A stretch of 64,000 bases of DNA from Tolypothrix sp. PCC 7712. Lineage in GTDB: Bacteria; Cyanobacteriota; Cyanobacteriia; Cyanobacteriales; Nostocaceae. The notes under the pieces were generated by a model. It saw only the letters and a program-made list of their open reading frames with translations. It ran no database searches and was not told the DNA's origin. This document shows positions 11,991-48,582 of the stretch, one piece after another. The translations under genes and the position numbers were made by a program. Each line of letters opens with the position of its first letter. The stretch's first letter is position 1. The stretch spans positions 2,170,001 to 2,234,000 of the forward strand of contig NZ_CP063785.1 of the NCBI RefSeq assembly GCF_025860405.1, in the 5' to 3' direction.

Positions 11991-14900
11991 ATGACAAAGT
12001 ACCAGTATCAAGTCGGGGGGAGTTTGCCCCAAGATGCGCCAACTTATGTCAGACGACAAGCTGACGATGACATCTATGAAGGCTTGACCCAGGGTGAGTT
12101 TTGTTATGTCCTCAATTCCCGGCAGATGGGCAAGTCTAGTTTGCGGGTGCAGGTGATGCAACGGTTACAAAATGAAGGCTTTGCCTGTGCGGTGATTGAT
12201 ATTACTTCTATTGGCACAGCAGATATTACCCCAGAACAGTGGTATGCAGGGGTGATTGATACCCTAGTGGGGAGTTTGGATCTTTATAACAGCTTTGATT
12301 TAGATACTTGGTGGACAGAGAATGGCTTGCTTTCCCCTGTGCAGCATTTGAGTAAGTTTATCGAAACGGTTTTACTCAAAATAATTACTGAGAAGATAGT
12401 AATTTTTATTGACGAAATTGACAGCATTCTCAGTCTTTCGTTCAACTTAGATGATTTTTTTGCCGTGATTCGCGATTGCTATAACCGCAGGGCTACCCAT
12501 GCAGATTATAATCGCCTGACTTTTGCTTTGATTGGGGTGTCTACCCCCTCAGACCTAATTCAAGATAAACGCCGCACTCCTTTTAATATTGGGCGGGCAA
12601 TTGATTTAACTGGCTTTCAACTCCATGAGGCGGAACCTTTGGCGCGGGGGTTGGCGGCGGAGGGTGATTCTGGGGAGTTGATGCGGGTGGTGTTGGCGTG
12701 GACGGGGGGACAGCCGTTTTTGACGCAGAAGGTTTGTAAGTTGGTGGTGGGATTGGGGAAGGGGGAAGGGGGAAACGGGGAAAGGGAGAAAGGGGAAGAA
12801 TCTAAAATCCAAAATCCAAAATCCAAAATTGAGGGGTTGGTTGAGGATTTGGTGAGGAGGCGGATTATTGAGAATTGGGAGGCGCAGGATGAGCCGGAGC
12901 ATTTGAAGACGATCCGGGACAGGATTATGGCGGGGGGGGAAGAGAAGGCTGGAAGGTTGTTGGCGTTGTGTCAGCAGATTTCGCAGCAGGGAGAGATAGC
13001 GGCTGATGATAGTGCTGAACAAACTGAGTTGCGGTTAACGGGTTTGGTGGTGAAGCGGGATGGGAAGCTGCGAATTTATAACCGGATTTATGCTGAGGTG
13101 TTTAAGCCGGAATGGAGTGAAAAGCTTTTGGCAAAGCTGCGCCCATATTCTGATGCTTTTAATGCTTGGGTGGAGTCGCAACAACAAGATGAGTCGCGGT
13201 TGTTGCGGGGAAAGACTTTGCAAGATGCTCAAGAATGGGCGACGGGTAAAAGTTTAAGCGATTTGGATTATCGGTTTTTGGCTGCTAGTCAGGAATTAGA
13301 AAAGCGTGATGTGCAAAGGCGGTTGGAGGCGGAAGAACAGGCGAAGCAAGTTTTGGCAGAGGCGAACCGCAAAGCTAATCGACGGATTCAAGTTGGTGCT
13401 GTGGTGCTGGGGTTGGCAATGGTGGGGGCAGCAGCATCGTTAATGTTGGCTCAATATCAATTAGGGCAAGCACGATTAGCTAGGACAGAAACGGATAAGG
13501 CTCAAACAGAGCTAAAAAAAGCGCAAACAGAAACAGAAACCACTAAGCAAGAGAATCAGCGCATATCGGTAGAGAATAAAAATTTATCAGCGCAAGCAGC
13601 ACAAGCACAACAAAATCTAAATAATGCAACTGCAAAGTTGAAAACTGCAAATGCCAAAGTGAATGAGGCACAGCAAAAAGTGACATTAGCGGAAAGCAAA
13701 GTGGAAGCAGCTAACGCCAAGGTTAGTCAAGCTGAGGGACAGGCAAAGGAAGCAGTTGAACAACGACAAGCAGCACAACAGCAGCGTGAAGAAGCTGTTG
13801 CAGGTTTAAATCGGGCTAGGGAAGAACAAAAGCAGGCGCAACAAGAATTACAAACTGCTAAAACTGCTCTGAATGCAGCCGTTAATGCCCGTGCAAAGGC
13901 AGATGAAGACCGAAAAATTGCTTTAAAAGCTACCCAATTAGAACAAGATGGAACAAATGCTTTGGGATTGTTTACATCTTCAAAGGAAATAGAGGGGCTA
14001 CTGTTAGCAATGCAGACTGGAAAAGAACTAAAAACTCTGGTAAAGAATAAAAAATCTTTAGCAGATTATCCTGCTTATAGCCCTTTGTTTAGTTTACAAA
14101 CCATTTTATTAAATATTCGCGAACAAAATCGCTTGGAAGGGCATAGCGATTATGTCAGAAGCGTCGTCTTCAGCCCCGATGGCAAAACTTTAGCTTCCGC
14201 CAGTCTTGACAAGACCATCAAATTGTGGAATCGGGACACAGGCAAAGAAATTTCTACCCTGACTGGGCATAGCGATTCGGTCATCAGCGTCGTCTTCAGC
14301 CCTGATGGTAAAACTATAGCTTCCGCCAGTGGTGACAAGACCATCAAATTGTGGAATCGGGACACAGGCAAAGAAATTTCCACCTTGACTGGGCATAGCA
14401 ATTCGGTCATCAGCGTCGTCTTCAGCCCCGATGGCAAAACTTTAGCTTCCGCCAGTCTTGACAAGACCATCAAATTGTGGAATCGGGACACAGGCAAAGA
14501 AATTTCCACCCTGACTGGGCATAGCGATTCGGTCATCAGCGTCGTCTTCAGCCCCGATGGTAAAACTTTAGCTTCCGCCAGTACTGACAACACCATCAAA
14601 TTGTGGAATCGGGACACAGGCAAAGAAATTTCTACCCTGACTGGGCATAGCGATTCGGTCATCAGCGTCGTCTTCAGCCCTGATGGTAAAACTATAGCTT
14701 CCGCCAGTGGTGACAAGACCATCAAATTGTGGAATCGGGACACAGGCAAAGAAATTTCCACCTTGACTGGGCATAGCAATTCGGTCATCAGCGTCGTCTT
14801 CAGCCCCGATGGCAAAACTTTAGCTTCCGCCAGTCTTGACAAGACCATCAAATTGTGGAATCGGGACACAGGCAAAGAAATTTCCACCCTGACTGGGCAT

Positions 14901-16343
14901 AGCGATTCGGTCATCAGCGTCGTCTTCAGCCCCGATGGTAAAACTTTAGCTTCCGCCAGTACTGACAACACCATCAAATTGTGGAATCGGGACACAGGCA
15001 AAGAAATTTTCACCCTGACTGGGCATAGCGATTATGTCATCAGCGTCGTCTTCAGCCCCGATGGCAAAACTTTAGCTTCCGCCAGTTGGGACAACACCAT
15101 CAAATTATGGAATCGGGGCACAGGCAAAGAAATTTCCACCCTGACTGGGCATAGCGATTATGTCAGAAGCGTCGTCTTCAGCCCCGATGGCAAAACTTTA
15201 GCTTCCGCCAGTGGTGACAACACCATCAAATTATGGAATCGGGGCACAGGCAAAGAAATTTCCACCCTGACTGGGCATAGCGATTATGTCATCAGCGTCG
15301 TCTTCAGCCCCGATGGCAAAACTTTAGCTTCCGCCAGTGGTGACAACACCATCAAATTGTGGAATCGGGACACAGGCAAAGAAATTTCCACCCTGACTGG
15401 GCATAGCTCATCGGTAAACAGCGTCGTCTTCAGCCTCAATGGCAAAACGTTAGCTTCCGCCAGTACTGATAACACCATCAAATTGTGGAATCGGGACACA
15501 GGCAAAGAAATTTCCACCCTGACTGGGCATAGCGATTCGGTCATCAGCGTCGTGTTCAGCCCCGATGGCAAAACTTTAGCTTCCGCTAGTGATGACAAGA
15601 CCATCCAATTGTGGAATCGGGACACAGGTAAAGAAATTTTCACCCTGACTGGGCATAGCGATTCGGTCTTCAGGGTCGTGTTCAGCCCCGATGGCAAAAC
15701 TTTAGCTTCCGCTAGTTGGGACAACACCATCAAATTGTGGAATTGGGAGACGGGCAAAGAAATTGCCACTCTCAATGGCCATAGCGATGGGGTCATGAGC
15801 ATCGTCTTCAGCCCCGATGGCAAAACTTTAGCTTCCGCTAGTGATGACAACACCATCAAATTGTGGAATCGGGAGACGGGCAAAGAAATTTCCACCCTGA
15901 CTGGGCATAGCAATTCGGTAAACAGCGTCGTGTTCAGCCCCGATGGTAAAACTTTAGCGTCCGCTAGTACTGACAAGACCATCAAATTGTGGAATCGGGA
16001 GATGGGCAAAGAAATTTCCACCCTGACTGGGCATAGCAATTCGGTAAACAGCGTCGTTTTTAGCCCCGATGGTAAAACTTTAGCTTCCGCCAGTGCTGAC
16101 AAGACCATCAAATTGTGGAATCGGGAGATGGGCAAAGAAATTTCCACCCTGACTGGGCATAGCAATTCGGTAAACAGCGTCGTTTTTAGCCCCGATGGTA
16201 AAACTTTAGCTTCCGCCAGTGCTGACAAGACCATCAAATTGTGGAATCTGAGTCTTGATGATTTATTAGCCCAGGGTTGCAGTTGGCTGAAGGGTTATTT
16301 GGTTAGCCATCCTGATGAGGCGAAGGTGTGTAAGGGAAGGTAG
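11991..16343 (+). CDS. AAA-like ATPase / coiled-coil / 17x WD40 repeat protein
   Basis: The 1450-residue protein is a STAND-like regulator. Residues 1-420 hold an AAA-like domain with Walker A-type [10 protein letters not shown], Walker B-type [11 protein letters not shown], and the [16 protein letters not shown] segment. Residues about 463-485 ([22 protein letters not shown]) form a membrane segment. Residues about 495-660 are a long Gln/Ala/Glu/Lys-rich coiled coil. Residues 717-1430 are 17 WD40 repeats of exactly 42 residues (GHSDx[34 protein letters not shown]). The repeats are nearly identical at DNA level. A repeat-derived insert sits in the ATPase region (12755-12829). ATG at 11991 is the only good start. 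It is probably a signal-scaffold NTPase; the ligand is unknown. Confidence 0.9.
12755..12829 (+). repeat. Short-repeat insert inside the AAA-WD40 gene
   Basis: GGGAAGGGGGAAGGGGG units followed by AATCCAAAATCCAAAATCC units lie in frame and are translated as a Gly/Glu/Lys stretch and then [11 protein letters not shown]. The same units occur in spacers at 16344-16380 and 21805-22030. The flanking protein sequence (KLVVG before, [15 protein letters not shown] after) looks normal. Confidence 0.75.
14139..16275 (+). repeat. 17 tandem 126-bp units encoding WD40 repeats
   Basis: Units of exactly 126 bases start at 14139. Units 2-4 (14265-14642) and 5-7 (14643-15020) are the same three variants in the same order and are almost identical, including silent choices, which points to a recent 378-base duplication. 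The high identity causes long open frames on the opposite strand that are not genes. Confidence 0.9.
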
Positions 16344-18822: not shown

Positions 18823-21537
18823 ATGCTGCAAAAATTTTTACCACTTTTAGTGATTGGTGTGTGGGGAGCGATCGCCTTGCCTTTGTCAGGGCGGGCCAAT
18901 GCAACAATTCCTCTCACCAGAGCTGAGATTCAGGAATTGCGTAACTTAGTACAGCTAATTCCCCGAAATAGCCCTAAGAAGCGTCCAGCGCGCAAATCCG
19001 ATGCGATGATTCCTGGTGATGGTTTATCCACTGGTAGAAAGTCCCTTGCAGATTTACGTTTCAATGATGGCTCTCTAGCAAGGATTGGAGAACAAGCAGT
19101 ATTTCAGTTTTTACCGAAAACGCGCAATTTTCGACTCTCCAATGGCACAGTATTATTACTGATTCCACCTGGTAGGGGGCAAACACGGATACAAACACCC
19201 AATGCAGCAGCAGCAATTCGGGGTTCAGCATTATTTGTCCGTTATGACGAACAAACCGACACGACAATTGTCGGTGCGCTTACCAATAGCGGGATAGAAG
19301 TATCTAATAAAGCTTCTCAAAGTCAGGTGCTAGAAGCCGGGCAACTGATGGTAATTGTTAAAGGTAGATTTCAAGGTTTATACGATTTTGACCTGAGAAA
19401 TTTTTATGAAACTAGTGATTTAGTTCGAGGGCTTGATTTAACTAGACAGAATCTTGCACCAACACCAGACCCTGCGATCGCCAGCGTTCAAGCTGAAACT
19501 GCAGCTGCTGTAGCTACACAGACACCACTTAAAGGCGAGGGAGTTGTCGAAAATCCCTCATTTTTACAGCTAACAGCTAGTTCTTCCAATTCTGCCAATC
19601 AAGATTCTGCCTCCGAAGATAGTAAAAGCGAAACTAGCAGCGCAACTAATAGCGAAACTGATAAAAAAGGGTCTTCATTAAACGGAAGCCAAGAAAGTCT
19701 GCCAGTAGAATCCATTGTGGACAATGGGCAAACTCAATCAGATGAGCAAGTACGTAATAATACTGATACTACTCAAAAACCACCAATTCCAGATAATGGT
19801 GGTAACCCCCCTGTAATTGATGATGGTGGCGGGAACCCACCGAAACCAGATGATGGCGGGAATCCACCTGTAATTGATGATGGCGGCGGGAACCCACCGA
19901 AACCAGATGATGGTGGGAATCCACCTGTAATTGATGATGGTGGCGGGAACCCACCGAAACCAGATGATGGCGGGAATCCACCTGTAATTGATGATGGCGG
20001 CGGGAACCCACCGAAACCAGATGATGGCGGGAACCCACCTGTAATTGATGATGGCGGCGGGAACCCACCGAAACCAGATGATGGCGGGAATCCACCTGTA
20101 ATTGATGATGGCGGCGGGAACCCACCGAAACCAGATGATGGCGGGAATCCACCTGTAATTGATGATGGCGGCGGAAATCCACCGAAACCAGATGATGGCG
20201 GGAACCCACCTGTAATTGATGATGGTGGCGGGAACCCACCAAAACCAGATGATGGCGGGAACCCACCGAAACCAGATGATGGCGGAAATCCACCGAAACC
20301 AGATGATGGCGGGAATCCACCTGTAATTGATGATGGCGGCGGGAACCCACCGAAACCAGATGATGGCGGGAATCCACCTGTAATTGATGATGGCGGCGGA
20401 AATCCACCGAAACCAGATGATGGCGGCAATAGACCACCCCATAATGGCGGCAATAGACCTCCTCATGATGGCGGTAATAGACCTCCCCATGATGGCGGCA
20501 ATAGACCTCCTCATGATGGCGGTAATAAACCACCTAATGATGGCGGAGTCAAACCACCCAATACTGGCGGCGGTAATAAACCACCCAATACTGGCGGTAA
20601 TAAACCGCCTAATGATGGTGGTAATAAACCACCCAATACGGGTGGTTATAAACCACCCACACCTAGTGGCGGCACAACACCTCCCAATACTGGCGGCACA
20701 ACACCTCCCAATACTGGCGGCACAACACCTCCCAATGCTGGCGGCACAACACCTCCCAATACTGGCGGCACAACACCTCCCAATACTGGCGGCACAACAC
20801 CTCCCAATACTGGCGGCACAACACCTCCCAATACTGGCGGCACAACACCTCCCAATACTGGCGGCACAACACCTCCCAATACTGGCGGCACAACACCTCC
20901 CAATACTGGCGGCACAACACCTCCCAATACTGGTGGCACAACACCTCCCAATACTGGTGGCACAACACCTCCCAATACTGGTGGCACAACACCTCCCAAT
21001 ACTGGTGGCACAACACCTCCCAATACTGGTGGCACAACACCTCCCAATGCTGGCGGCACAACACCTCCTAATACTGGCGGGATAACACCGCCCAATACTG
21101 GCGGGATAACACCTCCCAATGCTGGCGGCACAACACCTCCTAATACTGGCGGGATAACACCTCCCAATGCTGGTGGGATAACACCACCTAATACAGGTGG
21201 CACAACACCACCTAATACAGGTGGGATAACACCGCCCAATACTGGCGGGATAACACCGCCCAATACTGGTGAAGGTATAACACTGCCCACACCTAGTAGC
21301 GGGATAACATCACCTAATGATGGAGCAGTCAAACCACCCACACCTGGTGAAGGTATAACACCACCTACACCTAGTGGCGGGACAACACCACCTACACCTA
21401 GTGGCGGGACAACGCTACCTACACCTGGTGAAGGTATAACACCACCTACACCTAGTGGCGGGACAACACCACCTACACCTGATGGCGGGACAACGCCACC
21501 TACACCTGATGGCGGGACAACGCCAACCCCCCAATGA
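18823..21537 (+). CDS. FecR-domain secreted protein with long Pro/Gly/Asn/Asp repeat tail
   Basis: The 904-residue protein starts with a signal peptide (MLQKFLPLLVIGVWGAIALPLSG, cleavage near ANA). Residues about 45-180 match a FecR domain: GDGLSTGRKSLADLRFNDGSLARIGE, FRLSNGTVLLLIPPGRGQTRIQTPNAAAAIRGSALFV, then LEAGQLMVIVKG. After a Ser/Asn/Glu-rich linker come about ten 19-residue units NPPVIDDGGGNPPKPDDGG (19810-20430), then more than 20 heptads TPPNTGG (20668-21260), then TPPTPSGG variants. The tail should be extended and surface-exposed or cell-wall spanning. The reading frame ends at TGA 21535-21537, right after a run of six C; deleting one C would extend the protein by about 23 residues. 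A terminator follows at 21656. Confidence 0.8.
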   Translation: MLQKFLPLLVIGVWGAIALPLSGRANATIPLTRAEIQELRNLVQLIPRNSPKKRPARKSDAMIPGDGLSTGRKSLADLRFNDGSLARIGEQAVFQFLPKTRNFRLSNGTVLLLIPPGRGQTRIQTPNAAAAIRGSALFVRYDEQTDTTIVGALTNSGIEVSNKASQSQVLEAGQLMVIVKGRFQGLYDFDLRNFYETSDLVRGLDLTRQNLAPTPDPAIASVQAETAAAVATQTPLKGEGVVENPSFLQLTASSSNSANQDSASEDSKSETSSATNSETDKKGSSLNGSQESLPVESIVDNGQTQSDEQVRNNTDTTQKPPIPDNGGNPPVIDDGGGNPPKPDDGGNPPVIDDGGGNPPKPDDGGNPPVIDDGGGNPPKPDDGGNPPVIDDGGGNPPKPDDGGNPPVIDDGGGNPPKPDDGGNPPVIDDGGGNPPKPDDGGNPPVIDDGGGNPPKPDDGGNPPVIDDGGGNPPKPDDGGNPPKPDDGGNPPKPDDGGNPPVIDDGGGNPPKPDDGGNPPVIDDGGGNPPKPDDGGNRPPHNGGNRPPHDGGNRPPHDGGNRPPHDGGNKPPNDGGVKPPNTGGGNKPPNTGGNKPPNDGGNKPPNTGGYKPPTPSGGTTPPNTGGTTPPNTGGTTPPNAGGTTPPNTGGTTPPNTGGTTPPNTGGTTPPNTGGTTPPNTGGTTPPNTGGTTPPNTGGTTPPNTGGTTPPNTGGTTPPNTGGTTPPNTGGTTPPNTGGTTPPNAGGTTPPNTGGITPPNTGGITPPNAGGTTPPNTGGITPPNAGGITPPNTGGTTPPNTGGITPPNTGGITPPNTGEGITLPTPSSGITSPNDGAVKPPTPGEGITPPTPSGGTTPPTPSGGTTLPTPGEGITPPTPSGGTTPPTPDGGTTPPTPDGGTTPTPQ
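19800..21260 (+). repeat. 57-bp and 21-bp coding tandem repeats in the FecR-domain gene
   Basis: The first block has 57-base units (about ten, 19800-20430) and the second has 21-base units (from about 20668). Both periods are multiples of three, so copy number can change without a frameshift. Long open frames on other strands and frames here are side effects of the periodicity. Confidence 0.9.
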
Positions 21538-45638: not shown

Positions 45639-47717
45639 ATGACTAATCGTCTTGTTGAAGCTAAGAGTCTCTATCTCCGCAAACACGCTGAGAACCCTAT
45701 CGATTGGTGGCCTTGGTGTGATGACGCACTAGCAACTGCCAAGGAAAAGAATCTACCTATCTTTCTTTCAATTGGCTACTCTAGTTGTCACTGGTGTACT
45801 GTCATGGAAGGTGAGGCTTTTTCTGACCTAGCTATTGCTGAATATATGAATGCTAATTTCCTCCCCATCAAAGTAGATAGGGAAGAAAGACCGGATATCG
45901 ACAGCATTTATATGCAAGCTTTGCAAATGATGAGTGGTCAGGGAGGATGGCCATTAAATGCATTTCTCTCTCCCGATGATTTGGTGCCGTTTTATGCTGG
46001 TACTTATTTTCCTTTAGAACCGCGTTATGGTCGTCCGGGGTTTTTGCAAGTTTTACAAGCAATTCGGCGCTACTACGATACAGAAAAAAATGATTTACAG
46101 CAACGCAAAGCTGTAATTACCGAAGCCCTCCTGACTTCGGCTGTGTTGCAAGATGGTACAGGTGGGGATGTTGCAGAAAATGAATTACTCCGCAAAGGTT
46201 GGGAAACTTGCACTGCAATAATTAGCCCTAACCCATCAGGGAATAGTTTCCCGATGATTCCCTATGGCGAATTAGCATTACGTTTAAATCGGTTAAATTT
46301 TCCATCGCGCTATGATGGCGCACAAGTTGTTACTCAGCGTGGGCTAGATTTATCGTTAGGCGGGATTTTTGACCATGTGGCTGGTGGTTTCCACCGTTAT
46401 ACTGTTGACCCTACATGGACAGTACCGCATTTTGAAAAGATGCTCTACGACAATGGTCAAATTGTGGAGTATTTAGCGAATTTATGGAGTGCAGGAGTAG
46501 AAGAACCAGCATTTGAGAGAGCGATCGCCAAAACTGTACAATGGCTCTCTAGGGAAATGACTGCTGCTGAAGGTTATTTCTACGCCGCCCAAGATGCTGA
46601 TAGTTTCACCAACTCCACAGCAGTAGAGCCAGAGGAAGGCGCATTTTACGTTTGGAGTTACAGGGAACTAGAAGAACTACTTACAGATGAGGAACTCGCA
46701 GAATTACAACAAGAATTTACAGTTAGCGCTAATGGTAACTTTGAAGGGCAGATTGTGTTGCAAAGGCGACATCCAGGGAAACTGAGTGATACCTTAGAAA
46801 TCTCTCTACATAAGTTATTTACTGCTAGATACGGCGTAAATGCTGAATCATTAGATACTTTCCCCCCTGCACGCAATAACCAAGAAGCCAAAACCACAAA
46901 TTGGCCGGGACGCATTCCCTCAGTCACAGATACAAAGATGATTGTGGCTTGGAATAGCTTAATGATTTCTGGTTTAGCAAGGGCTGCGGGAGTATTTCAA
47001 CAAGCATCATATTTGGAAATAGCAGCAAAAGCGGCAAACTTCATTCTGGTGCATCAGTTCGTTGATGGGCGTTTTCACCGACTGAATTATGACAATCAAC
47101 CCCATCTGCTAGCGCAGTCTGAAGATTACGCGTTTTTTATTAAAGCGCTACTAGATTTACACCAAGCTTCTTTGGGGATGGGAAATGTATCTTCCCCCGC
47201 ATTTTGGTTAGAAAAAGCGATCGCACTGCAAGATGAATTCAACGAATTTCTCTGGAGTGTAGAATTAGGCGGCTTCTACAACGCCGCAATTGATGCGAGT
47301 CAAGATTTAATTGTCCGCGAACGCAGTTATGCAGATAATGCTACACCCTCAGCCAACGGTATTGCGATCGCTAATCTTGTCCGTCTCACTTTACTTACTG
47401 ATAATCTGGACTATCTAAATTTAGCCGAACAAGGTTTAAAAGCCTTTCGGAGTGTGATGAGTAGTGCTACTCAAGCTTGTCCCAGTTTATTTACAGCTTT
47501 AGATTGGTATCGAAATTCGACTTTGATTCGCACTACCAATACTGAACATATCAAGTCTTTAATTCCCAAGCATTTGCCTACAGTGGTGTTTGCAGCAGCA
47601 TCAAATTTGCCAGACAACAGCATTGCCTTAGTTTGCCAAGGTTTGAAATGCCTTGCACCAGCAGAAAGCGTAGAACAAATGTGGCAACAAGTGCAGCAGA
47701 GTCAGAGTAGGGGATAG
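45639..47717 (+). CDS. Thioredoxin-domain DUF255 / YyaL-like protein
   Basis: The 692-residue protein has an N-terminal thioredoxin-like domain with SIGYSSCHWCTVMEGEAF (CxxC at about residues 49-52) and NANFLPIKVDREERPDID. It is followed by a long (alpha/alpha)6-barrel-like region (GIFDHVAGGFHRYTVDPTWTVPHFEKMLYDN, YFYAAQDADS) related to N-acylglucosamine 2-epimerase folds. This is the conserved YyaL/SPATA20 family, found in all domains of life. The function is not established. ATG at 45639. The distal end runs into short repeats. Confidence 0.9.
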   Translation: MTNRLVEAKSLYLRKHAENPIDWWPWCDDALATAKEKNLPIFLSIGYSSCHWCTVMEGEAFSDLAIAEYMNANFLPIKVDREERPDIDSIYMQALQMMSGQGGWPLNAFLSPDDLVPFYAGTYFPLEPRYGRPGFLQVLQAIRRYYDTEKNDLQQRKAVITEALLTSAVLQDGTGGDVAENELLRKGWETCTAIISPNPSGNSFPMIPYGELALRLNRLNFPSRYDGAQVVTQRGLDLSLGGIFDHVAGGFHRYTVDPTWTVPHFEKMLYDNGQIVEYLANLWSAGVEEPAFERAIAKTVQWLSREMTAAEGYFYAAQDADSFTNSTAVEPEEGAFYVWSYRELEELLTDEELAELQQEFTVSANGNFEGQIVLQRRHPGKLSDTLEISLHKLFTARYGVNAESLDTFPPARNNQEAKTTNWPGRIPSVTDTKMIVAWNSLMISGLARAAGVFQQASYLEIAAKAANFILVHQFVDGRFHRLNYDNQPHLLAQSEDYAFFIKALLDLHQASLGMGNVSSPAFWLEKAIALQDEFNEFLWSVELGGFYNAAIDASQDLIVRERSYADNATPSANGIAIANLVRLTLLTDNLDYLNLAEQGLKAFRSVMSSATQACPSLFTALDWYRNSTLIRTTNTEHIKSLIPKHLPTVVFAAASNLPDNSIALVCQGLKCLAPAESVEQMWQQVQQSQSRG

Positions 47718-47868
47718 GGATTGGGGACTGGGGACTGGGGACTGGGGACTGGGGACTGGGGACTGGGGATGAGGGAGATGAGGGAGATGAGGGAGATGAG
47801 GGAGATGAGGGAGATGAGGGAGATGAGGGAGATGAGGGAGATGAGGGGGATGAGGGAGAGATAATAAA
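47705..47868. repeat. GGGGACT heptamers followed by a GAGGGAGAT 9-bp array
   Basis: GGGGACTGGGGACTGGGGAC heptamers (47720-47768) pass into about ten tandem GAGGGAGAT nonamers (47769-47860). The nonamer array recurs at 61146-61180 and, in reverse orientation, at 61664-61735. Confidence 0.9.
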
Positions 47869-47901
47869 TGTCTAATACAAAAAACCAAACAACAAACACC
47901 A

Positions 47902-48582
47902 ATGCCCCATGCCCCATGCCCAAACACCAACTTAACAGCAATTGTGCTTGCGGGTGGTCAAAGTGCGCGGATGGGTGAAGATAAAGCTTTGCTCAAAATT
48001 CAAGGAATACCTTTGTTAGAGCGTGTTTGTACCATTGCTCAAGCTTGTGCTGATACCGTTTATATAGTTACTCCCTGGCCAGAACGCTATCAAAACTTGC
48101 TTCTCCCTGATTGTAAATTCATCCAAGAATCCCCCTCATCCCCAGTACCCAGTCCCCAGTACCCAGTCCCCAGTACCCAATCTCCAATCCCCAGTCCCCA
48201 GTCCCCAATCCCCAACCCTCAACCCCACGGCCCCTTAATCGGATTTGCTCAAGGACTAGCGCAGGTGCACACAGATTGGGTGTTGCTGCTGGCTTGCGAT
48301 TTGCCCAGGTTAAGGGTTGAGGTGCTGCAAGAGTGGATAGCTAGATTAGATACTGTGGGGGATGATGCGATCGCAGCTTTGGCTCATCATGCTAAAGGAT
48401 GGGAACCTCTTTGTGGTTTTTATCGCCAAAGATGTTTACCGCAACTCTTAGAGTTTATCAATCAAGGCGGGCGTTCATTTCAACAGTGGTTGAAGCAAAA
48501 TTCTGTGCAAGTTTTGCCTTTGCTGGAACCAGAAATGCTGTTTAACTGTAATACTCCAGAAGATTTGTGGAAAGTTAACTAA
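47902..48582 (+). CDS. mobA: Molybdenum cofactor guanylyltransferase with repeat insert
   Basis: The 226-residue enzyme adds GMP to molybdopterin. The N-terminal nucleotide-binding loop is VLAGGQSARMGEDKALLKI, followed by VYIVTPWPERY, and after the insert GPLIGFAQGL, LLACDLPRLR and LCGFYRQRCLPQL, all as in MobA. A 33-residue stretch of SPVPSPQ-type repeats (48130-48228) sits between VYIVTPWPERY...KFIQE and GPLIG; it is the translated CCCCAGT/CCCCAAT repeat. The only in-frame start, ATG at 47902, comes from a CCCCATG short repeat, and I see no ribosome binding site. Activity with the insert is plausible because it falls in a surface loop. Confidence 0.85.
   Translation: MPHAPCPNTNLTAIVLAGGQSARMGEDKALLKIQGIPLLERVCTIAQACADTVYIVTPWPERYQNLLLPDCKFIQESPSSPVPSPQYPVPSTQSPIPSPQSPIPNPQPHGPLIGFAQGLAQVHTDWVLLLACDLPRLRVEVLQEWIARLDTVGDDAIAALAHHAKGWEPLCGFYRQRCLPQLLEFINQGGRSFQQWLKQNSVQVLPLLEPEMLFNCNTPEDLWKVN
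48130..48228 (+). repeat. CCCCAGT/CCCCAAT repeat insert inside mobA
   Basis: The 99-base stretch of CCCCAGTACCCAGTCCCCAG type is a multiple of three and keeps the frame open. Spacers at 34190-34330, 36600-36712 and 61230-61310 carry the same units in one or the other orientation. Confidence 0.9.

Follow-up and report, generated by a model that had tools for sequence, protein, structure and literature searches.

STRR (short tandemly repeated repetitive) sequences occur in heterocystous cyanobacteria, including inside the RNase P RNA gene, and there, as in the mobA gene of Tolypothrix sp. PCC 7712 described here, 7-nt repeats are tolerated within a functional gene; mobA, however, is protein-coding, so that growth of its repeat is limited by the reading frame. 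Rickettsial palindromic elements are inserted in frame in proteins. In these proteins, as in MobA, a dispersed DNA element is translated as a tolerated insert, whereas the insert in mobA is a tandem array with no inverted repeat reported within the loop itself. G-quadruplex-forming GGGGA(C/T)T heptamers have been described in Nostoc sp. PCC 7120 (89 arrays, 68% of them intergenic; Rehm et al., 2015, PMC4692102), and hence intragenic heptamer arrays were already known. Judged from the accessible passages of that paper, the unit of the mobA loop is the same as the complement of the Nostoc heptamer, and is likewise dispersed and mixed in its C/T units, while growth in frame within the loop of an enzyme, a composite with the repeat GATGAGGG and a displaced start codon are not described there. 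Rehm-type repeats have at least two GGGGAYT units and are dispersed genome-wide, and the present repeat, with six units in the loop, is of this type; the mobA-loop array is a putative G-quadruplex former. Another paper (PMC4874684) deals with excised elements, and its accessible passages do not mention heptamers. A literature search on insertions in MobA, start-codon repeats, the nonamer, in-frame and small dispersed elements, coding-region heptamers and STRR sequences, covering titles and the openings of abstracts, with subscription papers mostly outside it, found no description of the mobA loop case or of the GATGAGGG composite.

Results

The mobA gene and the need for its product

The window (the whole stretch of 64,000 nt that was analysed) contains the gene and the loop features listed here.

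47902 to 48582, plus strand: mobA, molybdenum cofactor guanylyltransferase of the NF002741/PRK02726 type, an ORF of 226 aa identified by profile searches
48130 to 48228, plus strand: loop built of repeats, residues 77-109 (SPSSPVPSPQYPVPSTQSPIPSPQSPIPNPQPH), flanked by strand 71-75/E76 and GPL110-112, with no predicted secondary structure
48139 to 48215, plus strand: heptamer array CCCCAGT/CCCCAAT/ACCCAGT of period 7 within the loop, the G-rich strand being the template strand
48130 to 48143, plus strand: nonamer-type loop start TCCCCCTCATCCCC, reverse complement of the GATGAGGG repeat

The mobA ORF scored 304.8 bits against NF002741 (cut-off 179), with residues 9-224 on profile positions 6-193, i.e. 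216 residues over 188 positions or about 28 extra residues, and 128 bits against PF12804 (cut-off 27). It was below the cut-off of another MobA equivalog model, TIGR02665 molyb_mobA (107.7 vs 151.85 bits), and was not assigned to it. In an alignment of 49 of the 59 available distinct proteins, which served for both motifs and model, L16, A17, G18, G19, S21, R23, M24, G25, D27 and K28 of LAGGxSxRMGxDK and C132, D133 and L134 of CDLP were invariant, and P135 was present in at least 90%; these two membership motifs were our own choice. The AlphaFold2 model (mean pLDDT 88.7) had E. coli MobA as its best match in the PDB (1h4d, E 5.3e-14), and 1h4d and 1e5k ranked at the top with TM by target of 0.81 and 0.83. 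Transfer of GMP to molybdopterin is the predicted catalytic role of the protein, which is presumably catalytically competent.

Two molybdopterin oxidoreductases with PF00384, a class that uses MGD, are encoded in the genome, and on this basis MobA probably has client enzymes. One (L083) had its best scores with formate dehydrogenase alpha (535 bits) and NasC nitrate reductase (505 bits), both under cut-off, and the other (L084) was over the FdhF/YdeP cut-off (677.5 vs 582). The search of the same genome for mobA gave one match at E 1e-20 or better and no second mobA, and the other listed match (E 1.9e-9, residues 71-113, with stops inside) is weak and due to the repeat. The idea that a second mobA is the functional copy, which would have told against the original prediction, was therefore rejected.

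A repeat-built loop before the GPL motif

An in-frame insert of 33 residues had been predicted from the sequence, and exactly 33 codons (99 nt), stop-free, lie between E76 and GPL. Tandem Repeats Finder reported period 7 at 48139-48214, with 10.9 copies, 84% matches and the unit TCCCCAG. The period-7 autocorrelation of the loop was 0.76. Base shuffling (5000 rounds) never gave more than 0.54, and 5000 synonymous recodings that followed mobA codon usage never more than 0.60, and the periodicity is therefore far beyond chance and beyond the requirement of the peptide. Six CCCCART units, i.e. GGGGAYT-type units on the minus strand, were located at 48140-48209. The proposed make-up of CCCCAGT/CCCCAAT thus applies to most of the loop but not to its first codons, TCCCCCTCATCC, which correspond to the reverse complement of another repeat, the 9-nt GATGAGGG. 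The peptide had been read as a Ser-Pro-x repeat; its actual period is seven residues, S-P-Q-S-P-V/I-P, arising from 21 nt. In the AlphaFold2 model, residues 81-110 had block-mean pLDDT of 65-68 and no secondary structure. The heptamer array has no stop codon in any frame of either strand and cycles as P-Q-S-P-V-P-S or G-T-G-D-W-G-L, so such arrays can enter ORFs.

Loop length within and beyond the genus

The mobA gene was present in 8/8 congeneric genomes, with repeat-like loops of 33 (Tolypothrix sp. PCC 7712), 38, 28, 19, 43, 39, 8 and 11 aa. The comparison with close strains that had been suggested as a check thus revealed a trait common to the genus, beside a core (178 codons compared) that is indel-free and, as judged from dN/dS of 0.10-0.19 in 7/7 comparisons with this genome, is under purifying selection. 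An insert unique to Tolypothrix sp. PCC 7712 was rejected, because all eight congeners have repeat-like loops: a genomic repeat does form most of the loop, as the claim of a short repeat invading an enzyme gene implied, but the event belongs to the level of genus or subclade and not to this strain alone.

At least three CCCCART units were found in the loops of 4/8 congeners, and most of the loops show nonamer-type TCATCC units. This genome and G005 have the variant units CCCCAGTACCCAGT in common, and their loops differ by 42 nt, i.e. six heptamers or 14 residues. The core gene tree placed G002 and G003 together and left G000 (this genome), G005 and G007 unresolved (branch supports concerned 0.07-0.80), and it fits both a scenario in which heptamers would have been gained once and then lost in G007 and one in which they would have been gained twice. 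The upstream flanking gene was recovered for a tree in 2/11 genomes only.

A mobA match was obtained in 205/217 genomes of the family. The loci of 103 of these were examined, and 97 were parsed (8 of the genus and 89 others), 6 being missed by the motif rule; the first 43 were the best matches, with a bias toward long loops, and 60 more were taken from further down the match listing. In this sample, which is not an unbiased loop-length distribution, the 89 parsed loops outside the genus had a median of 11 aa (range 4-44, usually 4-14), and 6/89 had at least 28 aa. A preceding strand directly adjacent to GPL, supposed to be normal in the original prediction, is thus not the usual state of relatives, which have a loop of about 4-14 residues. 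Since a loop of 4-14 residues is already present in most relatives outside the genus, the 99 nt represent the whole loop and not all of it gain; the net gain would be roughly 19-29 residues. None of the 89 parsed MobA loops from other genera contained at least three CCCCART units, and the insert as a general feature of MobA, which would have spoken against a repeat invasion, was rejected for the heptamer, though not for loop length itself. Long loops (36-44 aa) without the CCCCART heptamer occur in other genera, so loop growth does not always need the heptamer. The mobA loop of one further genome (G130, L079) includes CCCCCCTTTACAAGGGGGG, which looks palindromic and belongs to a different type of repeat.

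The heptamer elsewhere in the genome

The heptamer pattern CCCCARTCCCCARTCCCC had 531 + 476 = 1007 matches in the 10.1-Mb genome, and its reversed control had 0. A sample of 1.264 Mb (the window and 60 stretches of 20 kb) contained 52 arrays of at least three heptamer units, 9/52 being inside ORFs by our own rule (flanks of at least 25 aa on both sides of the array and at least 100 aa outside it). Six of these nine had a Pfam match, namely mobA, cobN (three arrays), a Mur-ligase-type protein and a 2Fe-2S protein with a score just below the cut-off (24.1 vs 24.8), and the remaining 3/9 were in ORFs without Pfam match; the arrays of the Mur-ligase-type and 2Fe-2S genes are near the N-terminus. 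MobA is therefore one of several array-bearing enzymes, and cobN is the more striking. The latter (1319 aa, L121:2586-6542, i.e. G000:C1:5652586-5656542) has heptamer-type inserts at three sites, all in frame and with both orientations represented (WGLGTGDWGLGTGD..., GDWGLGTGDWVLGIGD... and NPQYPVPSTQSPVPP). Their lengths vary at the first two sites among the congeners that the motif matched, which were not all of them. Long tandem arrays with units of 126 nt and mostly 24-57 nt, all multiples of three, were also seen at 14139-16248 and 19789-21525 of the window.

Polar composite and inverted upstream array

Two further arrays precede the gene.

47705 to 47779, plus strand: G-rich array ahead of the gene, with 85% complementarity to 48129-48203 over 75 nt, the two forming inverted arms 349 nt apart
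47768 to 47859, plus strand: upstream array of about 10 nonamers, GATGAGGGA, placed after the heptamers, which is also the polar order of the loop when reverse-complemented

On the G-rich strand, heptamers were followed by GATGAGGG in 20/20 adjacent pairs under a symmetric rule (1.264 Mb), and the reverse order was found in 0. Our first order patterns, applied to eight genomes, had given 536 vs 32 matches, almost all of them from five of these genomes, in counts where matches overlap within arrays and two patterns are slightly asymmetric; a pattern artefact was rejected on the symmetric result of 20 vs 0. The mobA loop has the same composite order on the minus strand (G000:C1:2218133-2218157 minus). 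The GGGGAYT-GATGAGGG composite (e.g. 47722-47859 of the window) is abundant in 5/8 congeners and nearly absent in three.

The loop repeat might have been copied from, or be kept similar to, the array upstream of its own gene, by template switching or gene conversion between the inverted arms. Such local inverted copying is compatible with the account preferred below and would name its seeding step; we regard it as possible but rather unlikely. In its favour, the two arms have the same polar composite order over their 75 nt. That inverted pairs are commonplace was rejected, since the 83 heptamer clusters of the 1.264 Mb formed three inverted pairs within 1 kb, the mobA pair included; among the 100 listed of 166 composite matches in this genome, inspected by eye, the opposite-strand pairs less than 1 kb apart were the mobA pair and 2520408/2521245. 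When the reverse complement of the loop was compared with the upstream 400 nt of 97 genomes, its own upstream ranked first in this genome (48.5 vs 43.5 for the best of the 96 others), in G006 (28 vs 24) and, outside the genus, in G039 (29.5 vs 18), and for loops of at least 20 aa it was in the top four in 7/19 inverted vs 2/19 direct comparisons. A 19-mer common to loop and upstream in G006 has 10 genomic copies, two of which are the inverted mobA pair, 367 nt apart; by our own estimate the chance of any two of ten lying within 400 nt is about 0.004. In the same genome (L014), the loop mirrors about 41 nt of its own upstream in inverted form, including GTGTGGG outside the plain unit. However, G002 and G003 have heptamer loops without a matching upstream array (their own upstreams scored 13, and 18 and 19 of the 96 other upstreams did at least as well), and own-upstream matches in G004 and G007 were not above shuffles. 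Loop and upstream could also draw independently on one genome-wide repeat pool, and the test was chosen after the mobA pair had been seen.

Start codon region

The beginning of the gene is also affected by heptamers.

47868 to 47870, plus strand: displaced start codon ATG, aligned with the starts of G005 and G007, out of the mobA frame and opening a frame of 36 residues to the stop
47893 to 47920, plus strand: 28-nt insertion with ATGCCCC heptamers, from the alignment with G005 and G007, exact placement ambiguous

The ATG at 47868, which stands after the purine run GAGGGAGAG, is out of frame because of the 28-nt insertion, a conclusion that might have to be revised if the A6 run close by (47879-47884) contained a base error. 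In the insertion and the next bases, ATGs at 47902, 47909 and 47916 lie in consecutive heptamers and thus in three different frames; the one at 47902, within the repeat, is the only ATG there in the mobA frame, and ORF calling (first ATG, GTG or TTG after a stop) also put the start at 47902.

Gain or loss of heptamers might therefore shift the ATG at 47868 into or out of the mobA frame and make expression phase-variable between strong and weak initiation. We consider this improbable. The ATG with which G005 and G007 start is indeed out of frame here, and the three successive ATGs cover all frames, but the repeat consists of two ATGCCCC units and one degenerate unit, so little slippage is expected, and no polymorphism was visible from one genome per species. 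The A6 run leaves room for a base-calling error whose correction would restore the frame, and 47902 may initiate well enough. It is slightly less probable still that the composite is one polar element which, spreading partly by local inverted copying, rebuilt both the start and the loop of mobA and made molybdenum-cofactor supply switchable by slippage.

Discussion

The mobA loop is a real, well-supported and in kind ordinary case of tolerated repeat growth within a protein. Its sequence and frame, the genus-wide length variation, the conserved core, the predicted disorder and the dispersed repeat were observed directly, and the account that we consider very probable as a whole is that of a tolerant loop which was seeded by a dispersed composite repeat, is resized by slippage and has no function of its own. 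The segment before GPL would be a surface loop tolerant of length change, and it would have received the composite of the genome (heptamers and 9-nt unit, C-rich on the sense strand), perhaps by copying from a nearby or a distant array. Slippage would then have altered the copy number, as the one clear congener pair (this genome vs G005) suggests. With a unit of 7 nt, the frame would survive only a net gain or loss of three units (21 nt, 7 residues), or changes that compensate one another, and selection for an intact enzyme would eliminate the out-of-frame lengths. The insert would be a flexible Pro/Ser/Gln loop which probably has no function of its own, and its growth is most likely harmless rather than the source of a new function.

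An adaptive loop, in which the Pro/Ser-rich peptide binds a partner such as nitrate reductase or MoeA, or acts as a gate to the GTP site, might be suggested by the location directly before the conserved GPL motif and by the recurrence of long loops in several genera, but it is very unlikely, since neither peptide nor length is conserved even within the genus (8-43 aa) and the nucleotide sequence resembles the genomic repeat more closely than the peptide requires. Repeats are error-prone in sequencing and assembly, but the ORF is intact and seven other assemblies have in-frame repeat-like loops at the same site, so an assembly or annotation artefact deserves hardly any credence.

The comparative series (8-43 residues at one site beside a fixed core) makes it possible to ask what length of unstructured insert is tolerated next to the active site of an enzyme, and by what route dispersed tandem repeats come to be translated. 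The polar order of the composite, together with the inverted upstream partner, provides a testable handle on the spread and role of cyanobacterial repeats, which the accessible passages of PMC4692102 leave open.
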